Virus record (IMG/VR): IMGVR_UViG_3300025165_000143
Span: 1-31,318 of that record
From: a virus
Strand: one strand, 5' to 3'
Length of the DNA: 31,318 nucleotides
The position numbers and the translations under genes were made by a program. Below, piece by piece: positions 14,839 through 31,168 of this stretch. The stretch's first letter is position 1; each line of letters begins with the position of its first letter. A model generated the notes under the pieces. The model did no database searches. It had not been told where the DNA came from and was given only the letters and a program-made list of their open reading frames with translations.

Positions 14839-15045
14839 CTACCTCCTATTCGGCCCGCCCCTTGGGCGCGGCTTCACCCCGAACCGCTTCAGCAGATGGT
14901 ACGCTCCGCTTCGCGTCAGCCCCAACTTCTCCCCAATCTGCTTCGCTGACATTCCTGAGTCGTACAACTTGTCAAGCCACTCCCTTGCGGAGTCGGAGCC
15001 TTCGGCTTGCGCCTCGCGGCGCCATGCAGCAATGTCTTTGCCCAT
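14839..15045 (-). CDS. small helix-turn-helix DNA-binding protein
   Basis: I chose ATG at 15045 because it follows GGGGGAGG; an earlier ATG at 15084 lies inside the palindrome and lacks a ribosome site. The 68-residue product has a helical lead (AAWRREAQAEGSDSAREWLD) and a clear HTH of the resolvase/Cro type (SAKQIGEKLGLTRSGAYHLL), then a basic tail RPRGGPNRR. A 28-bp palindrome lies 16 bases upstream of this start, and related sites recur at 26365 and 29932. The obvious inference is an autoregulated phage repressor or activator. Confidence 0.75.
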   Translation of the reverse strand: MGKDIAAWRREAQAEGSDSAREWLDKLYDSGMSAKQIGEKLGLTRSGAYHLLKRFGVKPRPRGGPNRR

Positions 15046-15060
15046 TGAGCGGCCTCCCCC

Positions 15061-15088
15061 AACATTGTGCCAGAATTGACACAATGTT
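15061..15088. promoter_or_regulatory. 28-bp palindromic operator-like site, copy 1
   Basis: Perfect nine-base arms AACATTGTG (15061-15069) and CACAATGTT (15080-15088) surround a ten-base centre CCAGAATTGA. The inner part also pairs, with one mismatch. It fills the gap between the helicase-like gene and the HTH gene, just ahead of the HTH ribosome site. Copy 2 (29932-29959) matches it at 24 of 28 positions and copy 3 (26365-26392, read on the other strand) at 23 of 28. Confidence 0.7.
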
Positions 15089-16563
15089 CAGCGCTTCGTT
15101 AACATATAAAAGTGCACCCGCCTCGTGGTGTCACGAACTTCCTTGACAACCCCCGCCTGCTCCAGCGTAGGGATTATCTTATTGCTGAGGAGGTCAGCGT
15201 TCACGCCGTACCTGTATACCCGTTTTAGCAGCGCACTGTGATCAATCTTCCCGCCAGCCTTCGTGATGGCCTCCACCACGACTTCGTAATGCCGCCCCTG
15301 CTCCGTTACGTCCACGATGCTAAATGCCTCCGGCATGTACCGCTGAGTCAATTCGAGAAGGGCGAGGGCTCGTTGGAGGGTGTTCTCTGACAACTCCATC
15401 GGCAGCTCTTCGCTGATGGTGAGGATGAGTGCGAGCCGGATGAGATGGTCCGGCTTGCGCTCGAAGTAGCCGGACAACTGAAGGCTGTCATGCTGCTCCT
15501 GCCGCGAGGTGGCGTACCACGCTTCGTACCACTCCTCCGCCTTCGGAGTCATCATGACCGCACCGCTGAGATTGGAGTATGAGACTAGCTTTGCCTGCAG
15601 CCACGCTCGGAGGGTCGCGTCTGCCGGCTTCGGCAGGGCGAATATGCGTGGAGTGTCCGCCTGGACAACAAAGACGAAGCGGCTGATGGTCCCACCGAGG
15701 AAGGCGGATTGGGGGATGGAGTGGGCGAGGCCATCTGGCGTGATGCCGCCGAGCAAGTGGACAGCGGGTGACTGCAGCGTCAGCCGGCCCTTCGTTCGGG
15801 TCACGTAGTCGAAGGGGCCTTCGCGGCAATCGGCGATGGATGTCAACATAAGCACAAGCCCCTCGTTGAACTCCTGCTTGCCCATGAAGACGCCGAGCTC
15901 AGGCGCATGGATAAAGAGGGACGGGTTCGCGGTGGAGATGGACGTGCCACCTACGGACGCCTTCGCGGTGACCTGCCGTGCCATCACGTCGAGGATGCCT
16001 TCGGGGGTGCCCTTCTCGCTGAGGATTTCAATGACGTTGGAGTCACGGAGGAGGCCGACGGCGATGTTCAACGAAGTGGACTTCTTGCATTTGCCCGTCG
16101 GGGCGACGAGGACGATGTAGTGGTTCGGGTACACACGGTAATAGTGTTTCTCGAAGAAGACGCGGCGCGAGAGTGCAGCGCCAACCACCGACACTCCATT
16201 CCAGAAGTGGAAGAGGATGGGAGCTTCGTGACCGCGAGTAAACTCGGCGTAGCGCCCAAGCCACCCACCCTTTGGGAACAGTTCTTCGAGCGAAGGGCGA
16301 AGCTCGGGCGGCGTCAGCGCGTCTTCCAGCTTCGCCGGGTCTTCACAGCCAATAGCAAAGGCGAATGACGCTGGAGAGAGTCCAAACCGTGTACGGATCG
16401 CTTCTGCCAGTTCGTCCCGCTGCGTCGGGGCCACGAATTGCCCGAAGGAGCGGAGGAAGTGGATGGCGTTCGTTCGCATTTCGACGTTCGCCCAGTTTAT
16501 TGAGGGACTTTTTAGCAGGTTGCACAGCCGGTCTAGCTGTTCCCCGATGACTTTGTCGTGCAT
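15088..16563 (-). CDS. DUF3987-type helicase-like ATPase
   Basis: The 491-residue product has a P-loop (APTGKCKKST, residues 154-163) preceded by the strand YIVLVAP, then FIHAPELGVFMG and LLGGITPDGL blocks typical of the DUF3987 group, which is found in phage replication modules and related to the C-terminal ATPase part of primase-helicases. It probably unwinds DNA at the fork with the nearby polymerase. The C-terminal 70 residues resemble a winged helix (KAGGKIDHSALLKRVYRYGV). I see no primase domain in it or beside it. Two copies of zinc or HTH small genes follow and precede it. Confidence 0.75.
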   Translation of the reverse strand: MHDKVIGEQLDRLCNLLKSPSINWANVEMRTNAIHFLRSFGQFVAPTQRDELAEAIRTRFGLSPASFAFAIGCEDPAKLEDALTPPELRPSLEELFPKGGWLGRYAEFTRGHEAPILFHFWNGVSVVGAALSRRVFFEKHYYRVYPNHYIVLVAPTGKCKKSTSLNIAVGLLRDSNVIEILSEKGTPEGILDVMARQVTAKASVGGTSISTANPSLFIHAPELGVFMGKQEFNEGLVLMLTSIADCREGPFDYVTRTKGRLTLQSPAVHLLGGITPDGLAHSIPQSAFLGGTISRFVFVVQADTPRIFALPKPADATLRAWLQAKLVSYSNLSGAVMMTPKAEEWYEAWYATSRQEQHDSLQLSGYFERKPDHLIRLALILTISEELPMELSENTLQRALALLELTQRYMPEAFSIVDVTEQGRHYEVVVEAITKAGGKIDHSALLKRVYRYGVNADLLSNKIIPTLEQAGVVKEVRDTTRRVHFYMLTKR

Positions 16564-16572
16564 TGGCCGCCC

Positions 16573-16737
16573 TCATCGTGCCAATACCTCCGCGGGTTTG
16601 CGATAGCCTCCAGGGCACCACGTGCGCCCAGATTTGTGCCCGCAGGTTAAGTAGTTAAAATCGCCGATGTTCCACAGCCGAACCGGCTTGCGGCACACCG
16701 GGCATATGCCTAAGATAGGCTTTCCATTTCTCCCCAA
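16573..16737 (-). CDS. small zinc-ribbon protein (54 aa)
   Basis: A short gene filling the gap between polymerase and helicase-like genes. The TTG start at 16737 follows GAGGTGAGAG and overlaps the 3' end of the polymerase gene by 28 bases. The product has CPVC at residues 12-15 and CGHKSGRTWC at 32-41, a CxxC...CxH...C zinc-ribbon pattern, within an otherwise well-formed 54-residue frame. Its place inside the replication genes suggests a DNA- or protein-binding accessory, but nothing more can be said. Confidence 0.6.
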   Translation of the reverse strand: MGRNGKPILGICPVCRKPVRLWNIGDFNYLTCGHKSGRTWCPGGYRKPAEVLAR

Positions 16738-18134
16738 CTCTCACCTCTCGTCAGGTCCATCTTTATGGCGACCTCTTTCCCTTCGATGATCGCTCTGTGC
16801 GCGTATGCGTCACGAATTTCGTCGGCGACTTTATTACGGTCCTCACGACGGCAGAGGGCGAGTACTGAGTCATGCACTTGATTAACGAGCGGACAACCGC
16901 GTTTATGGAGCGTGAGAAACCCAAAGTTGATGAAGTGGGCTCCGGTAGACTGGATGGGGTCGTTGACGCTAATGCCTCGAAGCTTGTCCTTCGGCTCGAA
17001 CAGGCGGCGCAGGCGTGTGCTCCCGTCAGGGAGGGTTGACCGGATTTCTCGGGTGGCGAGAGCGGATTTATATTGACGATCACGCCAAGTTGGTATTTCG
17101 GGAAGGAAGCTTCGATACGAAGCCATAGTTGCTTCGAGATGGGACAGTGGTATAAGGATACGCGCTTCGGTAAGAAGCTGCTCCTGGATAGTTGGGACTT
17201 CGGCCCAGTAGTTGTCCGCGAATACAAACTTCTTGATAGTGACGTAGCGACGGTGGCACTTTTCGTGGGTGGGGCAGTTTGTGTCCGACGCCTTGCGGGC
17301 ATGGGCGGCTTCCTCCTCCGTGGTGTGCATGACGTTGACCATATTGACAATGTGAATGCTCTTGCCGGCGGCGATAGCGTCGAGCCAAACGCGGACACCA
17401 GCTGCGTTGGCCATGAGGACCAGTTCGAGCTGTGCCGCGTCGGCCTGGATGAATTCGTATCCGGGTGGAGCGCAATAAATGCGTCGGATGTCGTCGGGGA
17501 TGTTCTGAAATTCAGGGCCAACGCCCCATGGCGTAGTCCACTTACGGCTTTGCAGGCGGCCTGTTCGCGTGGTGACGAGGAAGCGGGTGCGGATGCGGCC
17601 GTCCGACCATGGACGAATGTGGAGCCACGGCTTCGCCTTCGGCCCAGCGAGAAAGGTGCCGTAGTCCTTTGACTCTCCACGATACTCCGCAATGTTGGCG
17701 AAGACGGCTTCCACCGGCGTCCCCGCCGTCTTCAGCAGCGCGGTGACGATTTCCATCTTGTCAGCCTTCGGGGCGCCTTTGTCAGTTTCCCGACCACTAT
17801 GGAAGCCAAACTCGCGGAGGAGCTTCGCGGTTTGCGGGTTGCTGTTCGGGTTGTAATCAGGCTCGTTGATAATTGCTGCGCAGCCGCGAAGGGACTCTCG
17901 CAAGCGGCCCATCTTCGCCAGGCGTTCACGCTTCGCTTCCTCCATGCGGCCAAGATCAACCGGCATTCCACGCATTTGCATGGCGTAGACCGCTGAGGCG
18001 AGCGGTTGGAGGTAGCCAAAGTAGTAATGCTTCAGCCCGAACTCGCCGAGCTCGAACCAAAGGTCCTGCTTGCTTTCGTAGGTAACGGCTACGTCGCAAC
18101 CATTGTAAGTAGTCAAAACTGGACTGAGCTTCAC
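16710..18134 (-). CDS. family A DNA polymerase, polymerase domain with the end of the exonuclease domain
   Basis: The GTG at 18134 follows GGAGGA. The 474-residue product contains the family A signatures: TTRTGRLQS...EFQNIP (residues 188-213), motif A ADAAQLEL with Asp232 and Glu237, an O-helix K-x3-F-x3-Y (301, 305, 309) and motif C VHDS with Asp422, where Ser replaces the usual Glu. Residues 10-14 (YNGCD) fit the ExoIII motif Y-x3-D, which normally lies inside the 3'-5' exonuclease domain; ExoI and ExoII are on the gene at 18635-19723. The polymerase is thus split within its proofreading domain. It replicates the phage genome. Confidence 0.88.
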   Translation of the reverse strand: MKLSPVLTTYNGCDVAVTYESKQDLWFELGEFGLKHYYFGYLQPLASAVYAMQMRGMPVDLGRMEEAKRERLAKMGRLRESLRGCAAIINEPDYNPNSNPQTAKLLREFGFHSGRETDKGAPKADKMEIVTALLKTAGTPVEAVFANIAEYRGESKDYGTFLAGPKAKPWLHIRPWSDGRIRTRFLVTTRTGRLQSRKWTTPWGVGPEFQNIPDDIRRIYCAPPGYEFIQADAAQLELVLMANAAGVRVWLDAIAAGKSIHIVNMVNVMHTTEEEAAHARKASDTNCPTHEKCHRRYVTIKKFVFADNYWAEVPTIQEQLLTEARILIPLSHLEATMASYRSFLPEIPTWRDRQYKSALATREIRSTLPDGSTRLRRLFEPKDKLRGISVNDPIQSTGAHFINFGFLTLHKRGCPLVNQVHDSVLALCRREDRNKVADEIRDAYAHRAIIEGKEVAIKMDLTRGESWGEMESLS

Positions 18135-18492: not shown

Positions 18493-18638
18493 CGAGTCAC
18501 CATCCATAGGCAAAAGAGCCATGAGAATCCAGCCTGGCGACATTCGATCAAGATGCTGGCCAAAGCAATGCAGATGGTAATAATGATGCCAATAACTACA
18601 GCAGCGGAGATTATGATTAGCAGCGGCCTTGCGATCAT
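18489..18638 (-). CDS. small membrane protein (49 aa)
   Basis: ATG at 18638 overlaps the stop of the UDG-exonuclease gene (ATGA) and follows AAGGTGAGGA. The product begins with a long hydrophobic helix (PLLIIISAAVVIGIIITICI) and has a short C-terminal part with Cys and Trp. A membrane protein in the middle of a replication operon is unusual; it could tether replication to the membrane, or serve in superinfection exclusion. Both ideas are untested. Confidence 0.6.
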   Translation of the reverse strand: MIARPLLIIISAAVVIGIIITICIALASILIECRQAGFSWLFCLWMVTR

Positions 18639-19723
18639 TTGTCCTCACCTTCTTGCTCTTTAGTCCACGACGGTATCAACGACTTCCACTCCCTTCGTAG
18701 CGTGTGCACCGAGCCAACGAAGCCGAGGCCGTGCGGCAGCGGCGGGTACAGAATGGCGTGCATTACGTGAGTGTCCCACCAGCGCCCGGCGCACTCGAAG
18801 CCGTACTGCTCCAACCAGAAGCGGTCATGCTGCTCGAAGTGAACGATTTTGTCCACCTCGGGGTTGGCGAGGAGTCGGTAGATGGCTTGGATGACGCGAA
18901 GCTCGTCTGGCTCGCGCCAGTACCGCTCGCCTTCGTTGTTGATGAACGGGACGACCAGGGCGACGCCGCCCGCCAGGCCGAAGCCGATGATCGTCAGCAC
19001 GTCCTGCGGGTTCTCGATGTCAACTGAGACCTCCACCTTGACCTCTTCGACCGCCGCTAGAAACTGCTCGACCTCATCGGGGGTCGTCGGCACGAGGAAC
19101 TCCTCTGGGGGGGCGACGTAGCCATCCTTCGCCAGCGTAGCCGCACGGCGGAGGTCGGCGACGACCACCTGCCACATGGATTGGTCGTACATTAGCGCAG
19201 CGGGATGGATCGTTGGCACGATGAGGAAGTCGTAGATGGGTGACTGGTATGGGAAGCCACGGAAGCCATATATGCCCTGCCCAGCCTGCGGTTTTCCTCG
19301 TGCATCCCTCGAGCAGCGCTCCGTTAGCACCCAGTTGGCCCAGCCCCCGAGCGGGACGACCGCGTGGGGCTGGATTTCCTTGAGGCGGGGTTCGAGGAAG
19401 TGCTCGGCGCAATGCCGCGCCGCCTCCTCCATGCCTGCGAACTCGTCCGCGTCATCATTCGGGATGCGGCAGCAGACGACGTTTTCGATGCGGACGCTGG
19501 AGCGGGGGATGGCTGCGCCAGCTAGCAGAGCGGTGAGGACGCGGCCTGCGCCGCCGGAGAAGGGTCGGCCGAAGGCAATCTCCTGCCCAGCGGGGCCTTC
19601 GCCAACGACGACCAAGGCCGCGTCTGGCGGGCCGTCGCCCCAGACGGGGCCCGGTTCGTCCCACAAGGGGCAGCCGGCGCACTCCGGCGGCTTCCGGGAG
19701 GACCAGGTGGGCGCGTCTGTCAT
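18635..19723 (-). CDS. uracil-DNA glycosylase fused to a partial DnaQ-type 3'-5' exonuclease
   Basis: ATG at 19723 follows AAGGAG and overlaps the previous stop (ATGA). Residues 10-205 are a family 4-like uracil-DNA glycosylase: Cys15, Cys18, Cys84 or 85 and Cys105 fit a 4Fe-4S cluster, GEGPAGQE (41-48) is motif 1 and HPAA (173-176) is the second motif. Residues 215-362 are an exonuclease fold: VDIE (Asp235, Glu237) is ExoI and HFEQHD...WDT (295-318) is ExoII. ExoIII is missing here and begins the polymerase gene downstream. The pair probably forms one replicase with uracil-sensing and proofreading. UDG fused to phage polymerases is known; the split place is the odd part. Confidence 0.82.
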   Translation of the reverse strand: MTDAPTWSSRKPPECAGCPLWDEPGPVWGDGPPDAALVVVGEGPAGQEIAFGRPFSGGAGRVLTALLAGAAIPRSSVRIENVVCCRIPNDDADEFAGMEEAARHCAEHFLEPRLKEIQPHAVVPLGGWANWVLTERCSRDARGKPQAGQGIYGFRGFPYQSPIYDFLIVPTIHPAALMYDQSMWQVVVADLRRAATLAKDGYVAPPEEFLVPTTPDEVEQFLAAVEEVKVEVSVDIENPQDVLTIIGFGLAGGVALVVPFINNEGERYWREPDELRVIQAIYRLLANPEVDKIVHFEQHDRFWLEQYGFECAGRWWDTHVMHAILYPPLPHGLGFVGSVHTLRREWKSLIPSWTKEQEGEDK

Positions 19724-20067
19724 TCCCACTCCTTCGTCAGCACCGACTCCAGCATCTTGACCTGTTCCAGCACGGTCGCCGTCAGCGTCCGGATGGCCGC
19801 GAGGTGGACACGGTGCGCGGCGGCGAGAACCGCCTCGTCGTAGGAGAAGGCTGTCGTCTTGCGACCAAGCTCTAGCTCAACGGCAACCTTCCACTCACCT
19901 GGGTCGATCAGCAGCTCCTTGCTCACGGCGGCCTCCTTCCTTCGTCGAAAGACTCGGCGAACGCGGCCATCATAGTCGTCCCACGGCCACTTCCACCATG
20001 CCACGCATTTCCACGTCTCGTCTACGGCGACGCGGGGGTTGATCCACCAGAACGTGCTCGGAGCCAA
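19720..20067 (-). CDS. hypothetical early protein, helical C terminus
   Basis: The frame is open from TTG at 20067 (after GAGGTGG) to a stop overlapping the UDG gene (ATGA). A second good start is GTG at 19926, after AAGGAGG, giving only 68 residues. The longer version has a Trp-rich N terminus (TWKCVAWWKWPWDDY) that reads like real protein, so I give the long form. The C-terminal part is a charged helix (VHLAAIRTLTATVLEQVKMLE). No domain recognised. Confidence 0.5.
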   Translation of the reverse strand: MAPSTFWWINPRVAVDETWKCVAWWKWPWDDYDGRVRRVFRRRKEAAVSKELLIDPGEWKVAVELELGRKTTAFSYDEAVLAAAHRVHLAAIRTLTATVLEQVKMLESVLTKEWE

Positions 20068-20255
20068 TCTGCCACCTCTTCCACCGCGCAGCGTGCGCCG
20101 CAGAGGCGGCGCTTGCCGCCGAAGCCGACGGGTTCGTCCAGCGCTCGCTCGACGGTCAGTTTATACCCATCGTCAACAAGGTCCCACCACCCATCCTTGC
20201 GGCCGTCGCTACGTGAGCTGCAGCGATCGCAAGTGAAGATGACTTCAGTCCCCAT
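20022..20255 (-). CDS. small zinc-binding protein (77 aa)
   Basis: ATG at 20255 follows GGAGGAGG and overlaps the end of the methyltransferase gene. The 77-residue product has CDRC near residue 9 and CGARC near residue 52, with a helix after the second pair (CAVEEVADWLRARSG). This CxxC...CxxxC layout is typical of small phage zinc ribbons. It belongs to the group of short Cys-pair proteins spread over this block. No function can be given. Confidence 0.65.
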   Translation of the reverse strand: MGTEVIFTCDRCSSRSDGRKDGWWDLVDDGYKLTVERALDEPVGFGGKRRLCGARCAVEEVADWLRARSGGSTPASP

Positions 20256-21528
20256 CCGGGACCTCCTCCGCCGCCGGCTTGGCGAAGATGATGAGGTCGC
20301 CAACAAGCGGCAGTATACGCCGATCCTCCTTCGCCTTCTCCACATGAAACGCCTGCCAAATCGACGTCGGCCACGGGCATGCGATGCGGTCGAGGCTGAA
20401 TAGGCCGGCTTCGCAGAAATAGCGATACCACACGAAGGGCCAGTCCATGAACGGAAGGCCCTCCGGCAGGCGGAACTTCTGTTTCATCATAATGGCGGCG
20501 ACCGTGCCACCGGGCGGCAAGGCCGCGGCGGTGTCTTTGGCCAGCTTACGAAGGAAGCTGATGAACCCGGGGAAGTCCAACGCCGAAGCGGACTCTTCAA
20601 CGTAGTCCTCGGCGACCATGTTCCAATATGGCGGGTCGAGGAAGATGAGATTGGGGCGTTGCTCATAAGGCGGGTAGCCTTGTGTAACGTCCCATTGGAA
20701 GATGTCATCTCGCGTCGGGGCGATATCCGAAGCGTAGCACGTGCGGCCCATCGCCCGGCACACGTCCACTGTAATCCCGCCGCCAGCAAATGGGTCCGCG
20801 ATTATGTCGCCGTCGTGGGACCAGTAGTGAATGATGTTCTCGATGAAGTCGCCGGGGAGGCCGCCCGGGTGCGGCTTCCCATACTTCGGGTTCAGCCCCC
20901 CGAAGGACCACATATCATAGACCTTTGGCTCAAAGTCCGAAGGGGTCTTGTTCAGCTGGCCGACCAGCCTGAACACAGAGTCGATGGACGACTCGCCACG
21001 GTCCAACGCCTCCACCTTCAGCTTGATGAGTTCGGACCGCTCGGCGGCGGACCATATGGCCTTCATCTTGTGGTAGGTGCCGTGGCTGAGGCCAACTGTC
21101 GCGGCGGCGATGTCTCGGGCTTTGCCTGGGATGGATGTGTGCTCGTGACCGAGGTCCGTCCGACGCCCCTGGCGCGTGTTGGCTTGGACGGCCTCGATCT
21201 CCTCAAGGCGGCGCGCCTCGCGCATGATCTCGGTGTATGTCTTGCGGCGGTAGCGGTTGTGCTCAATGACCAGCCGTTCCAGCGCCAGCGGATCGGTCTC
21301 CGCTTCGACCTCGCAGTCGAGTTCTTCGAGGCCGATGGCCTGAGCAGCCGTCCACCGTCGGTGGCCAGAGATGATCGTCCCGTCGTCGGTGATCTTGAGC
21401 GGGACCAGTTGGCCGAGCTCTTTGAATACAGCCTTGAACTCCTCAAACTCAGGGCCGCCTGGCGGAGCGTACAGCCTTGAGTTCAGCGGATGCGGTTTGA
21501 GGTCACTGGTTCGGCGTTTCTCGGACAT
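20245..21528 (-). CDS. ParB-like domain fused to a DNA methyltransferase
   Basis: ATG at 21528 is four bases after GGAGGT; ATG at 21531 is too close. The 427-residue product has an N-terminal ParB/Srx-type domain (VPLKITDDGTIISGHRRWTA with the GHRR box at residues 55-58), a helical KorB-like middle, and a C-terminal methyltransferase: motif I DPFAGGG (245-251) and motif IV DPPYW (298-302), which indicates amino methylation of adenine or cytosine. Motif I precedes motif IV, unlike the common beta class. ParB-methylase fusions are known in phages and are thought to mask host restriction sites. No cognate restriction gene is nearby. Confidence 0.82.
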   Translation of the reverse strand: MSEKRRTSDLKPHPLNSRLYAPPGGPEFEEFKAVFKELGQLVPLKITDDGTIISGHRRWTAAQAIGLEELDCEVEAETDPLALERLVIEHNRYRRKTYTEIMREARRLEEIEAVQANTRQGRRTDLGHEHTSIPGKARDIAAATVGLSHGTYHKMKAIWSAAERSELIKLKVEALDRGESSIDSVFRLVGQLNKTPSDFEPKVYDMWSFGGLNPKYGKPHPGGLPGDFIENIIHYWSHDGDIIADPFAGGGITVDVCRAMGRTCYASDIAPTRDDIFQWDVTQGYPPYEQRPNLIFLDPPYWNMVAEDYVEESASALDFPGFISFLRKLAKDTAAALPPGGTVAAIMMKQKFRLPEGLPFMDWPFVWYRYFCEAGLFSLDRIACPWPTSIWQAFHVEKAKEDRRILPLVGDLIIFAKPAAEEVPDGD

Positions 21529-22165
21529 CATTACCTCCAGCAGGGATGGCTTCCTGTCCAGTTGTGAGAGCGGCGACCGCTACGCGAGCTAGTTCAAGAA
21601 ATGCGTTGGGGAGGTCAATAGCGTCACCGAGGCGGAAGAACTTGCCTCCGGTGCGATTGGCGATCCACTTCAGCAACTCTTCGTCGGCGCCCGGTCCACA
21701 GGCAATGGTGTGGATGACCTTTGAGGCGGCGACGGATTCGACCGCCGCGCGGACGCTTCGCGGGTCGTCCGGGCGCCCGTCAGACATGAGAATGGCATGG
21801 CTGCCAGCTGATGCTAAGGCGAACTCGTAGATGGCGAGGTGCATGGGAGTACCACCGCAGGCTTCGAGCTTGGGCAGGGCCTTGACGGGGACGCGGAGGA
21901 CTCTGCGCTCGTTCACGGTGCCGAACAGCACGGCGGACATCTCAACCCGAGAGGAGTATTCGGCAATGGTTGCCCGCGCAGCGTCTTCGAGTTCTTCAAT
22001 GGCGGCGCGGCCGCTGCTGCACCGGACGCCCATGCTGCTACTCACGTCCAGCAAGAGATCGAGACGGCGGTTGGATGGTAGCAGCGGAGCGGACGCCGCC
22101 TTCTTCAGCGAGTCAAATGGGTTGCGCTTCGGCGCGTCGTCGCCAGACCGTTTAACAAGGCTCAT
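21503..22165 (-). CDS. von Willebrand factor A domain protein
   Basis: The 220-residue product is nearly all one vWA domain: DVSSSM (residues 40-45) supplies the DxSxS metal site, GGTPM (Thr106) the second and MSDGRPDD (Asp129) the third metal-site element. The MIDAS site is thus complete, implying Mg-dependent ligand binding. ATG at 22165 follows GAGGAG. There is no signal peptide or membrane segment, so it acts in the cytoplasm. The stop overlaps the methyltransferase gene by about 26 bases. Partner unknown; MoxR-type AAA ATPases that often accompany vWA proteins are not seen in the window. Confidence 0.8.
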   Translation of the reverse strand: MSLVKRSGDDAPKRNPFDSLKKAASAPLLPSNRRLDLLLDVSSSMGVRCSSGRAAIEELEDAARATIAEYSSRVEMSAVLFGTVNERRVLRVPVKALPKLEACGGTPMHLAIYEFALASAGSHAILMSDGRPDDPRSVRAAVESVAASKVIHTIACGPGADEELLKWIANRTGGKFFRLGDAIDLPNAFLELARVAVAALTTGQEAIPAGGNDVRETPNQ

Positions 22166-22469
22166 CGCTTCGCTCCTCTATTAGCAGGCCGCTGCGTTCG
22201 TTCGTTAAGCGGTACGTGATAATGTTGCGTTCGTAGTCATGAGTGCGGCTGACTTTGAAATCATCAGGGCGGCTCATTAACTCACTTGGCGTTAGCTCTA
22301 TCTTCCCGCCGAGTTTGCGGAGGATGGCGATGAAGAGTATCTTTGAGGAGGCTACCTCAACACGAAGCTCGGATTCGTTAGCGTCGTAGCCGGGGCCGCC
22401 GAGACGAAGCTGACGGGTGAGCTCCGATTCTAGCCAGAGTCGTAGAGCGTCAGCCGCTTCCTCGCTCAC
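22152..22469 (-). CDS. hypothetical protein (105 aa)
   Basis: GTG at 22469 overlaps the preceding stop (GTGA) with GGAGGCAAGG upstream, and its stop overlaps the vWA gene. The product starts with a helix (ADALRLWLESELTRQLRL) and continues as an alternating strand/helix region with RPDDFKVSRTHDYERN. No motif or membrane segment. It sits between a J-domain protein and the vWA protein in a tightly coupled chain and may act with them; that is inference from gene order. Confidence 0.6.
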   Translation of the reverse strand: MSEEAADALRLWLESELTRQLRLGGPGYDANESELRVEVASSKILFIAILRKLGGKIELTPSELMSRPDDFKVSRTHDYERNIITYRLTNERSGLLIEERSDEPC

Positions 22470-22879
22470 TTTCCTTGCCTCCTCTCAATCCTCCCCCACG
22501 CCAGGTTAACCTTCTTCATCAACTCCGGGTCGCCCCCTTGGTCAGGATGGCACGCTAGTGCGATCACGCGGTATATCTGCTTCAGCACATTCGACGGCAG
22601 CCCCTCCAGTAGCGCGTGGTACGGGCTGTCGCTACCGCTGGCCGCGGTGGTTTCGTGTGGCAGTGTGCCATCTTCGACGCGGTAGTCGAGGGTGGCGAGG
22701 AGCTTTTCCAGCTCGGCCATGAATCCTTGGTCAATGAGCCATATCTTCCGCGCCCCATCCCACCGGCGTGACGCCCCGGGGATGACCGTTTTGATGCTGG
22801 CCACGAGGAAGTGGTCATATGGCGTGCGGAGCGCGATCATGCGTGTGTCGGGGTCAATCCAGACGGTTGCCGTCTTCAC
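22466..22879 (-). CDS. J-domain protein with HARP-like N-terminal domain
   Basis: GTG at 22879 overlaps the previous stop (GTGA). Residues 88-134 form a J-domain: YHALLEG, then a helix QIYRVIALACHPDQGGD with the invariant HPD at 111-113, and VNLAWGRI as helix III. J-domains stimulate Hsp70 ATPases. Residues 1-62 (PYDHFLVASIKTVIPG, then RRWDGARKIWLI) resemble the HARP/SMARCAL1 type module that binds branched DNA in helicases. A phage protein joining the two could recruit host DnaK to DNA or to a replication complex. The HARP likeness is by eye. Confidence 0.7.
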   Translation of the reverse strand: MKTATVWIDPDTRMIALRTPYDHFLVASIKTVIPGASRRWDGARKIWLIDQGFMAELEKLLATLDYRVEDGTLPHETTAASGSDSPYHALLEGLPSNVLKQIYRVIALACHPDQGGDPELMKKVNLAWGRIERRQGK

Positions 22880-25857: not shown

Positions 25858-26630
25858 TTGATGCACCTCCGGACCAGGTCGTACGCCTTGGGGCGGCCAT
25901 CCTGCCCATCTGCGCCGGTGATGTCGAGGAACGGGGGCATCCCCCGCTGTGCGAAGCGCGTGGCACCGGGAAAGATGCCGTCGGAAACGGTGCAAAGCGT
26001 GAACTTGCGCTTGTTGCCGGCGGCGACCTCCGTCCGGATGCGCCAGAGCTCGTCGCAGCCGAGGGGCAAGAGGTTCGCAAGCTGCCCCGGGAGCCAGACT
26101 TGCGCCATCACGCGCTCGAGGTTTGCGTCTTTGATGATCTCGAAGTGGGCGCAGATGACCACGTTGACGAAGGGCTTCAGCCCGTCAATCATCTCCGTCA
26201 GGCGCTGTGACGCGAGGCCCCAGTCCTGGATGGCGGGGATGCTGCGCCGGCCAAGAGCCATCGCGGACTCCAGGAAGCGGCGATGGCCCTTCGTAATCGA
26301 GTCGAAGACGATGGTCCGGACGGGCACTTCGGTGTCAACCGGCGTCGACACGCCTTCGCCAGTCAACTTTATGCCAATACTGGCACAAGGTTGACCGCCC
26401 CGTTGCACGGCTAGCATAACCTCGAGCATGGTCTCATAGTTCGGGTTCGATATGTAGGGATACGAAGTGCCCATCAGGCTATTCACCCCTCCATCGAAGT
26501 CGAAGAACAAGGGATCGGGGAAGGTGGACGCAAGCGTGGTCTTGCCGTCGCCTTTCATCGAGGCGATGATGGCGCTGATGAGCAGGTCTTGGTTCGGTTT
26601 GATGTCGGCTGTGTTCTTCAGCTCGATCAC
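25854..26630 (-). CDS. Sak4-like RecA-fold ATPase
   Basis: GTG at 26630 follows AAAGGAG. The 258-residue product has a Walker A (SMKGDGKTT, residues 24-32, with Ser in place of the first Gly), DFDGGVNSL after the next strand and a Walker B IVFDSIT (107-113), then VICAHFE, all in the order of AAA_24/Sak4-type phage ATPases. These promote single-strand annealing or strand exchange, usually with a phage SSB, here possibly the protein at 24521-24976. A degenerate copy of the repeated palindrome lies within the gene. Confidence 0.78.
   Translation of the reverse strand: MIELKNTADIKPNQDLLISAIIASMKGDGKTTLASTFPDPLFFDFDGGVNSLMGTSYPYISNPNYETMLEVMLAVQRGGQPCASIGIKLTGEGVSTPVDTEVPVRTIVFDSITKGHRRFLESAMALGRRSIPAIQDWGLASQRLTEMIDGLKPFVNVVICAHFEIIKDANLERVMAQVWLPGQLANLLPLGCDELWRIRTEVAAGNKRKFTLCTVSDGIFPGATRFAQRGMPPFLDITGADGQDGRPKAYDLVRRCIK
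26365..26392. promoter_or_regulatory. 28-bp palindromic site, degenerate copy 3, inside a gene
   Basis: Reads AACTTTATGCC at one end and CTGGCACAAGGTT at the other. Read on this strand it matches the reverse complement of copy 1 at 23 of 28 positions and keeps the TGCCA...TGGCA core. It lies within the Sak4-like coding region, so it may be an intragenic operator or a chance match. Confidence 0.4.
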
Positions 26631-28451: not shown

Positions 28452-28491
28452 CCGCTGCGCCAACGCAACCCGCGTCCCGTTGGCGCAGCGG
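28452..28491 (-). promoter_or_regulatory. perfect 14-bp-stem hairpin in a leader
   Basis: Arms CCGCTGCGCCAACG (28452-28465) and CGTTGGCGCAGCGG (28478-28491) are exact reverse complements around a 12-base loop. On the - strand it falls in the 85-base gap between two early genes, 24 bases upstream of the ATG at 28428. No T-tract follows, so termination is less likely than RNA processing, translational control or a protein-binding site. Confidence 0.55.
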
Positions 28492-29931: not shown

Positions 29932-29959
29932 GACTTTGTGCCAGCTTTGACACAATGTT
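29932..29959. promoter_or_regulatory. 28-bp palindromic operator-like site, copy 2
   Basis: Starts GACTTTGTGCC and ends TTGACACAATGTT, identical to copy 1 at 24 of 28 positions. It lies in the intergenic region about 88 bases upstream of the -35 at 29839-29844. A further GTGCCAG half-site at 29901-29907 lies nearby. Probably recognised by the protein that recognises copy 1, plausibly the HTH protein. Confidence 0.65.
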
Positions 29960-30421: not shown

Positions 30422-30877
30422 TCACTTTGTGCCATACTTCTGGCGCAGCCGTTCCACCTCCACCGGGTCGACGCCGCCACCTCTGAGTCTGTCTTGCTTG
30501 GCAGCCTGCTGCACAGCAGCCGCGCCCTTCCTCAGCCGGGGCGGCGGCGCGACCGGCCCCCCGTGTGGGCACCGACCGAGTCGGAACTTGGCGATGTTGC
30601 AGTTGAAGCACAGAACCTGGAACGCGCCCTTTGGGAAGCGGTTGCGGGCGATCCAGGAGTACAGTGCCGGTCCACGCAGCGGACGGCGACCTATCTTCCC
30701 CTTGACCGAAGGTGCAAAGGGGCCGCTTGCCGCTCCGTATACGTGGTCAATCGTAAGCATGACTTCGTGCTGAACGCCGCAGCAGATGCACTTCGGCTCC
30801 GAGCCTGGCGGGTGCGAGTATTCCGCCATGACGCGAAGGCGGAGCGGTACTAGGTTGGCGGAGCGCGGTTGCCGCAT
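30422..30877 (-). CDS. HNH endonuclease
   Basis: ATG at 30877 follows a GGGGGAAA run. The 151-residue product has the Cys-HNH layout: Cys30/Cys33 (CICC), LTIDHVYG (Asp44, His45), then RFPKGAFQVLCFNCNIAKF with Cys90/Cys93 and Asn94, and CPH (His105). The two Cys pairs hold zinc and the His-Asn-His set binds the catalytic metal. It may be a homing enzyme or a nuclease assisting genome packaging; phage HNH genes often lie next to the terminase, which would be just beyond the right edge. First gene after the first promoter. Confidence 0.82.
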   Translation of the reverse strand: MRQPRSANLVPLRLRVMAEYSHPPGSEPKCICCGVQHEVMLTIDHVYGAASGPFAPSVKGKIGRRPLRGPALYSWIARNRFPKGAFQVLCFNCNIAKFRLGRCPHGGPVAPPPRLRKGAAAVQQAAKQDRLRGGGVDPVEVERLRQKYGTK

Positions 30878-30925
30878 AGATTTCCCCCTTTCTCAACGTG
30901 ACGTAAGTCCTTAATTTCATTATGC

Positions 30926-30951: not shown

Positions 30952-30980
30952 ACTGTAACATGTTGAAAACACAATGTCAA
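30952..30980 (-). promoter_or_regulatory. sigma70-type early promoter
   Basis: On the - strand: TTGACA (30980-30975), a 17-base spacer and TACAGT (30957-30952), with TG just before the -10. The start would be near 30945, about 68 bases upstream of the HNH gene. It shares CTTGACAT and a TGnTACA core with the second promoter. Adjacent to the large dyad element. Confidence 0.7.
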
Positions 30981-30990
30981 GGGGAGATCC

Positions 30991-31130
30991 TTCTACGTTT
31001 CCCCTTCTACCTGCCCCGGGGGCTTACCGTGGTCCTAGCCATATATGTATCTATATAGATACACTACTATAGGACCGCTGCCTTTTCGAGCACGGGCTGG
31101 GGGCGGGGATGTAGAAGGGGAAACGTAGAA
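30991..31130. repeat. nested dyad, candidate origin or recombination/packaging site
   Basis: A perfect 20-base inverted repeat (left arm 30991-31010, right arm 31111-31130, starting TTCTACGTTT and ending AAACGTAGAA) surrounds a 100-base core. Inside are GGTCCTA (31031-31037) facing TAGGACC (31070-31076) and a perfect 16-base palindrome (31047-31062) in an AT-rich stretch that contrasts with the GC-rich flanks. No gene overlaps it. This suits a replication origin, a site-specific recombination or resolution site, or a packaging/regulatory site; the sequence cannot decide. Confidence 0.6.
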
Positions 31131-31168
31131 CTATGCACGGGGGAATCAATGAAATCGTGTGTTTGCAG

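Follow-up and report, generated by a model that had tools for sequence, protein, structure and literature searches.

Inverted iterons around an AT-rich core mark a probable replication origin in a podovirus-like phage

The sequence studied here is IMG/VR virus record IMGVR_UViG_3300025165_000143, taken in its entirety (31318 bases; the window). Structural genes run rightward over about 1-14 kb, and replication genes run leftward from about 30.9 to 14.5 kb. Our subject is a nested dyad at 30991-31130, which we read as a probable iteron-type replication origin. It occupies non-coding DNA upstream of the first leftward gene, an HNH gene starting at 30877; on its other side a putative open frame starts at 31150 and is still open where the sequence ends. 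We found neither direct nor inverted terminal repeats at the ends and saw no terminase, portal or capsid genes in the 31318 bases, and we therefore treat the record as a fragment. Feature coordinates are collected in Table 1.

Anatomy of the element

The outer part of the dyad is a perfect 20-bp inverted repeat (30991-31010 and 31111-31130) with a gap of 100 bp; its arms reach 26 bp if two mismatches are allowed. A preliminary description of the locus, made from the sequence alone, considered a chance match of this kind very unlikely. This is borne out: 1e-5 matches are expected in this sequence for perfect arms of at least 20 bp with a gap of at most 150, and the longest arms in five base shuffles measured 10-13. 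The inner arms and the position in a non-coding spot beside an early promoter, which is sigma70-like and leftward, were likewise described correctly. The central palindrome is indeed perfect, but its length is 18 bp and not the 16 bp first given. The inner dyad does not share its centre with the outer one: the centres are near 31054 and 31060.5, an offset of 6-7 bp.

Two features had been overlooked. Within each arm a hexamer recurs with a 14-bp period (TTCTAC-N8-TTCTAC), and the core between the arms is the most AT-rich stretch of 30-36 bp in the fragment (a 60-bp test fails in the fragment itself). As in iteron-type origins, repeated short sites (TTCTAC twice, GTAGAA twice) adjoin an AT-rich element.

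A second type of repeat, which we call 'B', flanks the element. The fragment's copy, the best match of the motif across the whole fragment, differs from the IHF consensus at one position when read on the opposite strand (mismatches counted by eye).

Recurrence in related phages

A search with the DUF3987 ATPase ('primase') of the replication arm led to MW202554.1 (Manatee Spring podovirus, L005), which carries a ParB-methyltransferase, a split polymerase and a DUF3987 gene in the same order as the fragment. Its early region contains a perfect 18-bp dyad with a 101-bp gap. An alignment of the methyltransferase was then used to retrieve IMG/VR contigs, among them G001, G002, G003 and G004, all with a DUF3987 gene. 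G001 is syntenic across 15-28.7 kb of the fragment; its polymerase, methyltransferase and DUF3987 proteins show 54-59% identity. Inverted iteron clusters surround an AT-rich core in three of these contigs: GTTCTAC/GTAGAAC in G001, TTCTACA/TGTAGAA in G002 and TTCTGCA/TGCAGAA in G003, each with more iterons per side than the fragment's two. Given these clusters, we regard the fragment's perfect arms as a minimal two-per-side iteron array.

The same layout is spelt in other words in the more distant DUF3987 phages vir526, Mel-JY34, OP947158.1 and MW202489.1; the clusters of MW202554.1 and vir526 are built from repeats other than TTCTAC. Mel-JY34 is a Microcystis phage, and the AT core of its record is at 44.2 kb. 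In relatives sharing the DUF3987 ATPase, the layout is placed in a non-coding gap of the early genes. It recurs in at least nine related viruses, often with different letters. The preliminary description, which had proposed an origin of replication, held that absence of the repeat from relatives with the same gene order would count against it. The layout is present in G001, G002, G003, MW202554.1 and G022 (a contig introduced below), and the comparison with relatives supports an origin.

The 'B' repeats match the IHF consensus exactly in G002 and G022, at the same place as the fragment's copy. IHF-consensus sites near the element account for five of the eight in G002 (within 300 bp of the core) and three of the four in G022, where all close copies of a CGTAAGTCCTTGATTC-like repeat, three in number, cluster around the element. 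In G001, too, the best 'B' match (16888) is at the element. DnaA boxes occur once in the core of MW202554.1 and once about 200 bp from that of OP947158.1.

Scans and pattern searches

At 10 of 11 sites, the inverted 6-mers shared between the two flanks far exceed those of shuffled flanks (0/1000 each), direct 6-mers much less so; these values are biased, since the sites had been picked beforehand by their repeats. The fair test is an unguided scan, in which every position was scored for inverted 6-mer matches between its flanks, ignoring the dyads. The site ranked first in nine records (G001, G002, G003, MW202554.1, MW202489.1, OP947158.1, vir526, Mel-JY34 and MW202524.1), and also in G022/G021. 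It holds the most AT-rich 60 bp of the record in nine relatives: G001, G002, G003, MW202554.1, MW202489.1, OP947158.1, vir526, Mel-JY34 and G022/G021. In T7 and LUZ24, the best inverted-repeat cluster does not coincide with the AT-richest 60 bp.

We also searched 2.9 million viral contigs blindly for the pattern TTCTAC-N2-16-TTCTAC-N85-115-GTAGAA-N8-GTAGAA, for which about 0.1 chance hits are expected by a rough estimate. The only match was one locus, present in two contigs. G022, the longer of the two, has both the ATPase (DUF3987, 44% identity) and the methyltransferase (45% identity). In this search the layout is restricted to this phage group.

GC skew, a check proposed in the preliminary description, gave a divided result: MW202554.1 and vir526 have their cumulative minimum close to the site, MW202489.1 and Mel-JY34 do not, and the measure is confounded by divergent transcription. 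The exact 20-bp arm had no match in viral contigs, nor did single-protein searches of viral contigs with the polymerase, Sak4 or DUF3987. Alignments of seven DUF3987 members and of TerL were too divergent to help. We rejected MW202489.1:26586-26700 and several inverted repeats in coding sequence, which lack an AT core, and a Vibrio phage dyad (L007:40672-40790), which is low-complexity AT and failed the flank test.

A candidate initiator

DUF3987 has been described as a predicted AAA+ helicase family of mobile genetic elements whose winged-helix domain might recognise origins (PMC5862659). The last 82 residues of the fragment's DUF3987 protein are modelled as a winged helix with a pLDDT of 82. 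The top Foldseek matches of this C-terminal model are winged-helix proteins with E-values of 0.002 and above, so the likeness is at the level of the fold only. The predicted winged helix makes DUF3987 a plausible iteron binder, and we consider the ATPase the likely, though unproven, initiator.

We infer the following mechanism. The inverted TTCTAC and GTAGAA clusters would be bound by an initiator, for which the DUF3987 ATPase, with its predicted C-terminal winged helix, is the likeliest candidate. Two oppositely oriented complexes would melt the AT-rich core between them, and would act as the helicase, or load one, so that replication proceeds in both directions. Help may come from a DNA-bending protein, for instance IHF, at the flanking 'B' repeats.

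Weighing the origin against other readings

We put the probability that the element is an iteron-type replication origin of a podovirus-like phage, laid out like those of phage-inducible chromosomal islands (PICIs) and Staphylococcus aureus pathogenicity islands (SaPIs), at roughly 0.78. Several observations weigh against this reading. The fragment's iteron score alone ranks second, tied, and only the perfect arms together with the AT core single the site out. No exact IHF or DnaA site was found in the fragment. The full-length model of the DUF3987 ATPase is of low confidence, and some 14.5 kb separate its gene from the site, which is not the case in PICIs. The DUF3987 phages L007 (Vibrio), PaP2 and Tiera have no such top site, nor does contig G004, though G004 is a fragment. 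Conversely, MW202524.1 has an iteron site without a DUF3987 hit, and a RepA-like AAA_25 gene adjoins it; this fits a layout that persists as the initiator changes. Finally, the 8-bp spacer between the fragment's iterons is perfectly symmetric, which iterons alone do not require.

This last point leads to the reading that survives best after the origin, namely that the symmetry itself works, as a cruciform or a single-strand hairpin that folds back to prime or load on single-stranded DNA. Folding with RNA parameters fell far below shuffles for both strands of the fragment and of MW202554.1, and for the single strand tested in G001 and in G002. A purely structural element fits poorly with the unequal, irregularly spaced clusters of G001 and G002, with inner palindromes that are absent or weak in some relatives, and with the fact that close relatives conserve the iteron words and not the stem. 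We consider it unlikely, but given the strong folding and the symmetric spacer, a structural role of the dyad stays as a rival to iteron binding or an addition to it.

The element could instead be a transcriptional operator, at whose inverted sites a phage regulator represses or loops the early promoter. That promoter is about 10 bp from the left arm, and the gap adjoins early genes. An operator does not need the AT minimum of the genome, and the several iterons per side and IHF-like sites of the relatives suit an origin better. A better operator candidate exists elsewhere in the window: the palindrome TTGTGYCA-N4-TGRCACAA, found at 15065-15084 and 29936-29955 with a degenerate copy near 26370-26388. 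One of the copies overlaps with the beginning of a small HTH gene (14839-15084), which suggests an autoregulated operator there. For the dyad, we think this function quite improbable.

Repeats and an IHF site also occur together in P1 parS, and the closest relatives keep the ParB-N methyltransferase; the ParB-N domain of this enzyme might bind the element as a partition-like or methyltransferase-control site. No ParA was seen, and the element is also found in relatives without an annotated methyltransferase of this kind, such as vir526, which makes this very unlikely.

Two further functions suggested in the preliminary description, a resolution or recombination site and part of the packaging region, are not supported. 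For a pac or cos site bound by the small terminase subunit, one can point to the terminase genes about 0.7-3.5 kb from the element in several relatives; early genes intervene in MW202554.1, packaging sites need no AT minimum, and the blind-search match shares the ATPase, so little credence is left for it. That the dyad forms the terminal repeats of a miniature transposon (140 bp with inverted ends of about 26 bp) is barely credible, since there is no target duplication (flanks GATCC vs CTATG), the arms vary in sequence among relatives while the location stays, and a DNA search with the element found no match in phage records. An N15-type hairpin telomere was already discounted in the preliminary description, and we agree: no protelomerase was found among the genes scanned (the fragment being incomplete), and the inner sequences of the relatives lack the same kind of palindromic symmetry. 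RNA readings also fit less well than an origin; Rfam gave only a spurious microRNA-precursor hairpin match, below the cut-off.

Other features of the window and its relatives

Table 1. Features of the element and associated genes in the window.
Feature	Position	Strand	Details
DUF3987 AAA+-type ATPase (PHROG 'DNA primase'), candidate initiator helicase	15088..16563	-	last ~70 residues predicted as a winged helix
ParB-N domain + N6/N4 DNA methyltransferase	20245..21531	-	marker gene for finding relatives
J-domain-like HPD-motif protein, replication arm	22466..22879	-	small, HPD motif at its end
Second repeat type 'B', CGTAAGTCCTTAATTT	30902..30917	+	one mismatch from IHF consensus, opposite strand
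Sigma70-like leftward early promoter	30952..30980	-	TTGACA-N17-TACAGT, TG before second hexamer
Left arm, direct iterons TTCTAC (30991-30996, 31005-31010), then C-rich stretch	30991..31016	+	14-bp period
Inner arms GGTCCTA (31031-31037) and TAGGACC (31070-31076)	31031..31076	.	sequence and fold
AT-rich core, putative DNA unwinding element	31036..31071	.	9 G/C in 36; 6 in 30
Perfect palindrome TGTATCTATATAGATACA inside AT-rich core	31046..31063	.	18 bp
Right arm, inverted iterons GTAGAA (31111-31116, 31125-31130)	31105..31130	-	14-bp period

The HPD-motif protein is kept in G001 and G002, and G003 has a similar one; it is possibly an accessory factor. The family-A DNA polymerase is split over two genes, 18635-19729 (-) and 16710-18134 (-), the upstream piece being a uracil-DNA glycosylase domain fused to a 3'-5' exonuclease domain; it is likewise split in G001 and MW202554.1. 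A perfect 14-bp hairpin with a 12-base loop at 28452-28491 (CCGCTGCGCCAACG/CGTTGGCGCAGCGG) may be a terminator or a structured coding spot.

In MW202524.1 (L013), inverted AGTACCA iterons follow immediately after the RepA-like AAA_25 gene (34100-35345). Three other methyltransferase-bearing viral contigs, without a hit for the fragment's DUF3987, contain dense inverted iterons (TGTTACG; TACCCTCA) that may be further iteron origins: L032 6971-7237, L049 4954-5148 and L047 6758-6912. The annotated large terminase of MW202554.1 (32887-34542) holds an insert with intein-like features.

Comparison with known origins

To our knowledge, the origins of most lytic phages are unknown, and we found no description of the present layout in lytic phages in the open-access literature. 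The sequence rule used here picks a single candidate origin per genome across a diverse phage group, and names a candidate initiator from a little-characterised ATPase family. There is perhaps an even chance that these sites form a phage origin class absent from the literature searched and widespread in podovirus-like phages, one in which inverted iteron clusters enclose the AT minimum of the genome, some members add IHF-like sites, and self-loading DUF3987 helicases are the initiators; such an origin layout was previously reported only for phage-inducible islands.

In lambdoid origins, the iterons bound by lambda O lie on one side of an AT-rich element, inside the initiator gene. Our element likewise has iterons beside an AT-rich stretch, but they flank it on both sides in inverted orientation and lie in non-coding DNA. 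SV40 and papillomavirus origins combine inverted initiator sites and an AT-rich element in a compact site with double-hexamer logic. Inverted sites with an AT-rich element are again the likeness, together with the double-hexamer logic of the mechanism proposed here (for the comparison with SaPI Rep, see PMC7581432); the spacing of about 100 bp is not compact, and the initiator protein is a different one. In the Cch2/CCPol module of SCCmec, an AAA+ helicase that binds repeats is combined with a family-A polymerase (PMC7581432). The fragment's replication module also has a predicted AAA+ helicase with a family-A polymerase, and repeats that the helicase would bind, whereas the putative SCCmec origin consists of three direct-repeat iterons downstream of the helicase gene.

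In PICI and SaPI origins an AT-rich melting region is flanked by two sets of iterons, and the initiator helicase recognises the iterons by its C-terminal domain (PMC6092414, PMC7581432). Two iteron sets flank an AT-rich region here too; the likeness concerns the two-set layout and not the relative orientation of the sets. The PICI origin lies directly 3' of the initiator gene, whereas here the candidate gene and the site are about 14.5 kb apart. The DUF3987 candidate has no sequence match to a solved Rep, and its full-length model is too weak to compare. For these reasons we say that the element would work like a PICI origin and do not file it as one. The hosts of the layout also differ, being phages with a full structural gene arm; if our reading is true, this suggests shared ancestry or convergence with the islands that parasitise phages.
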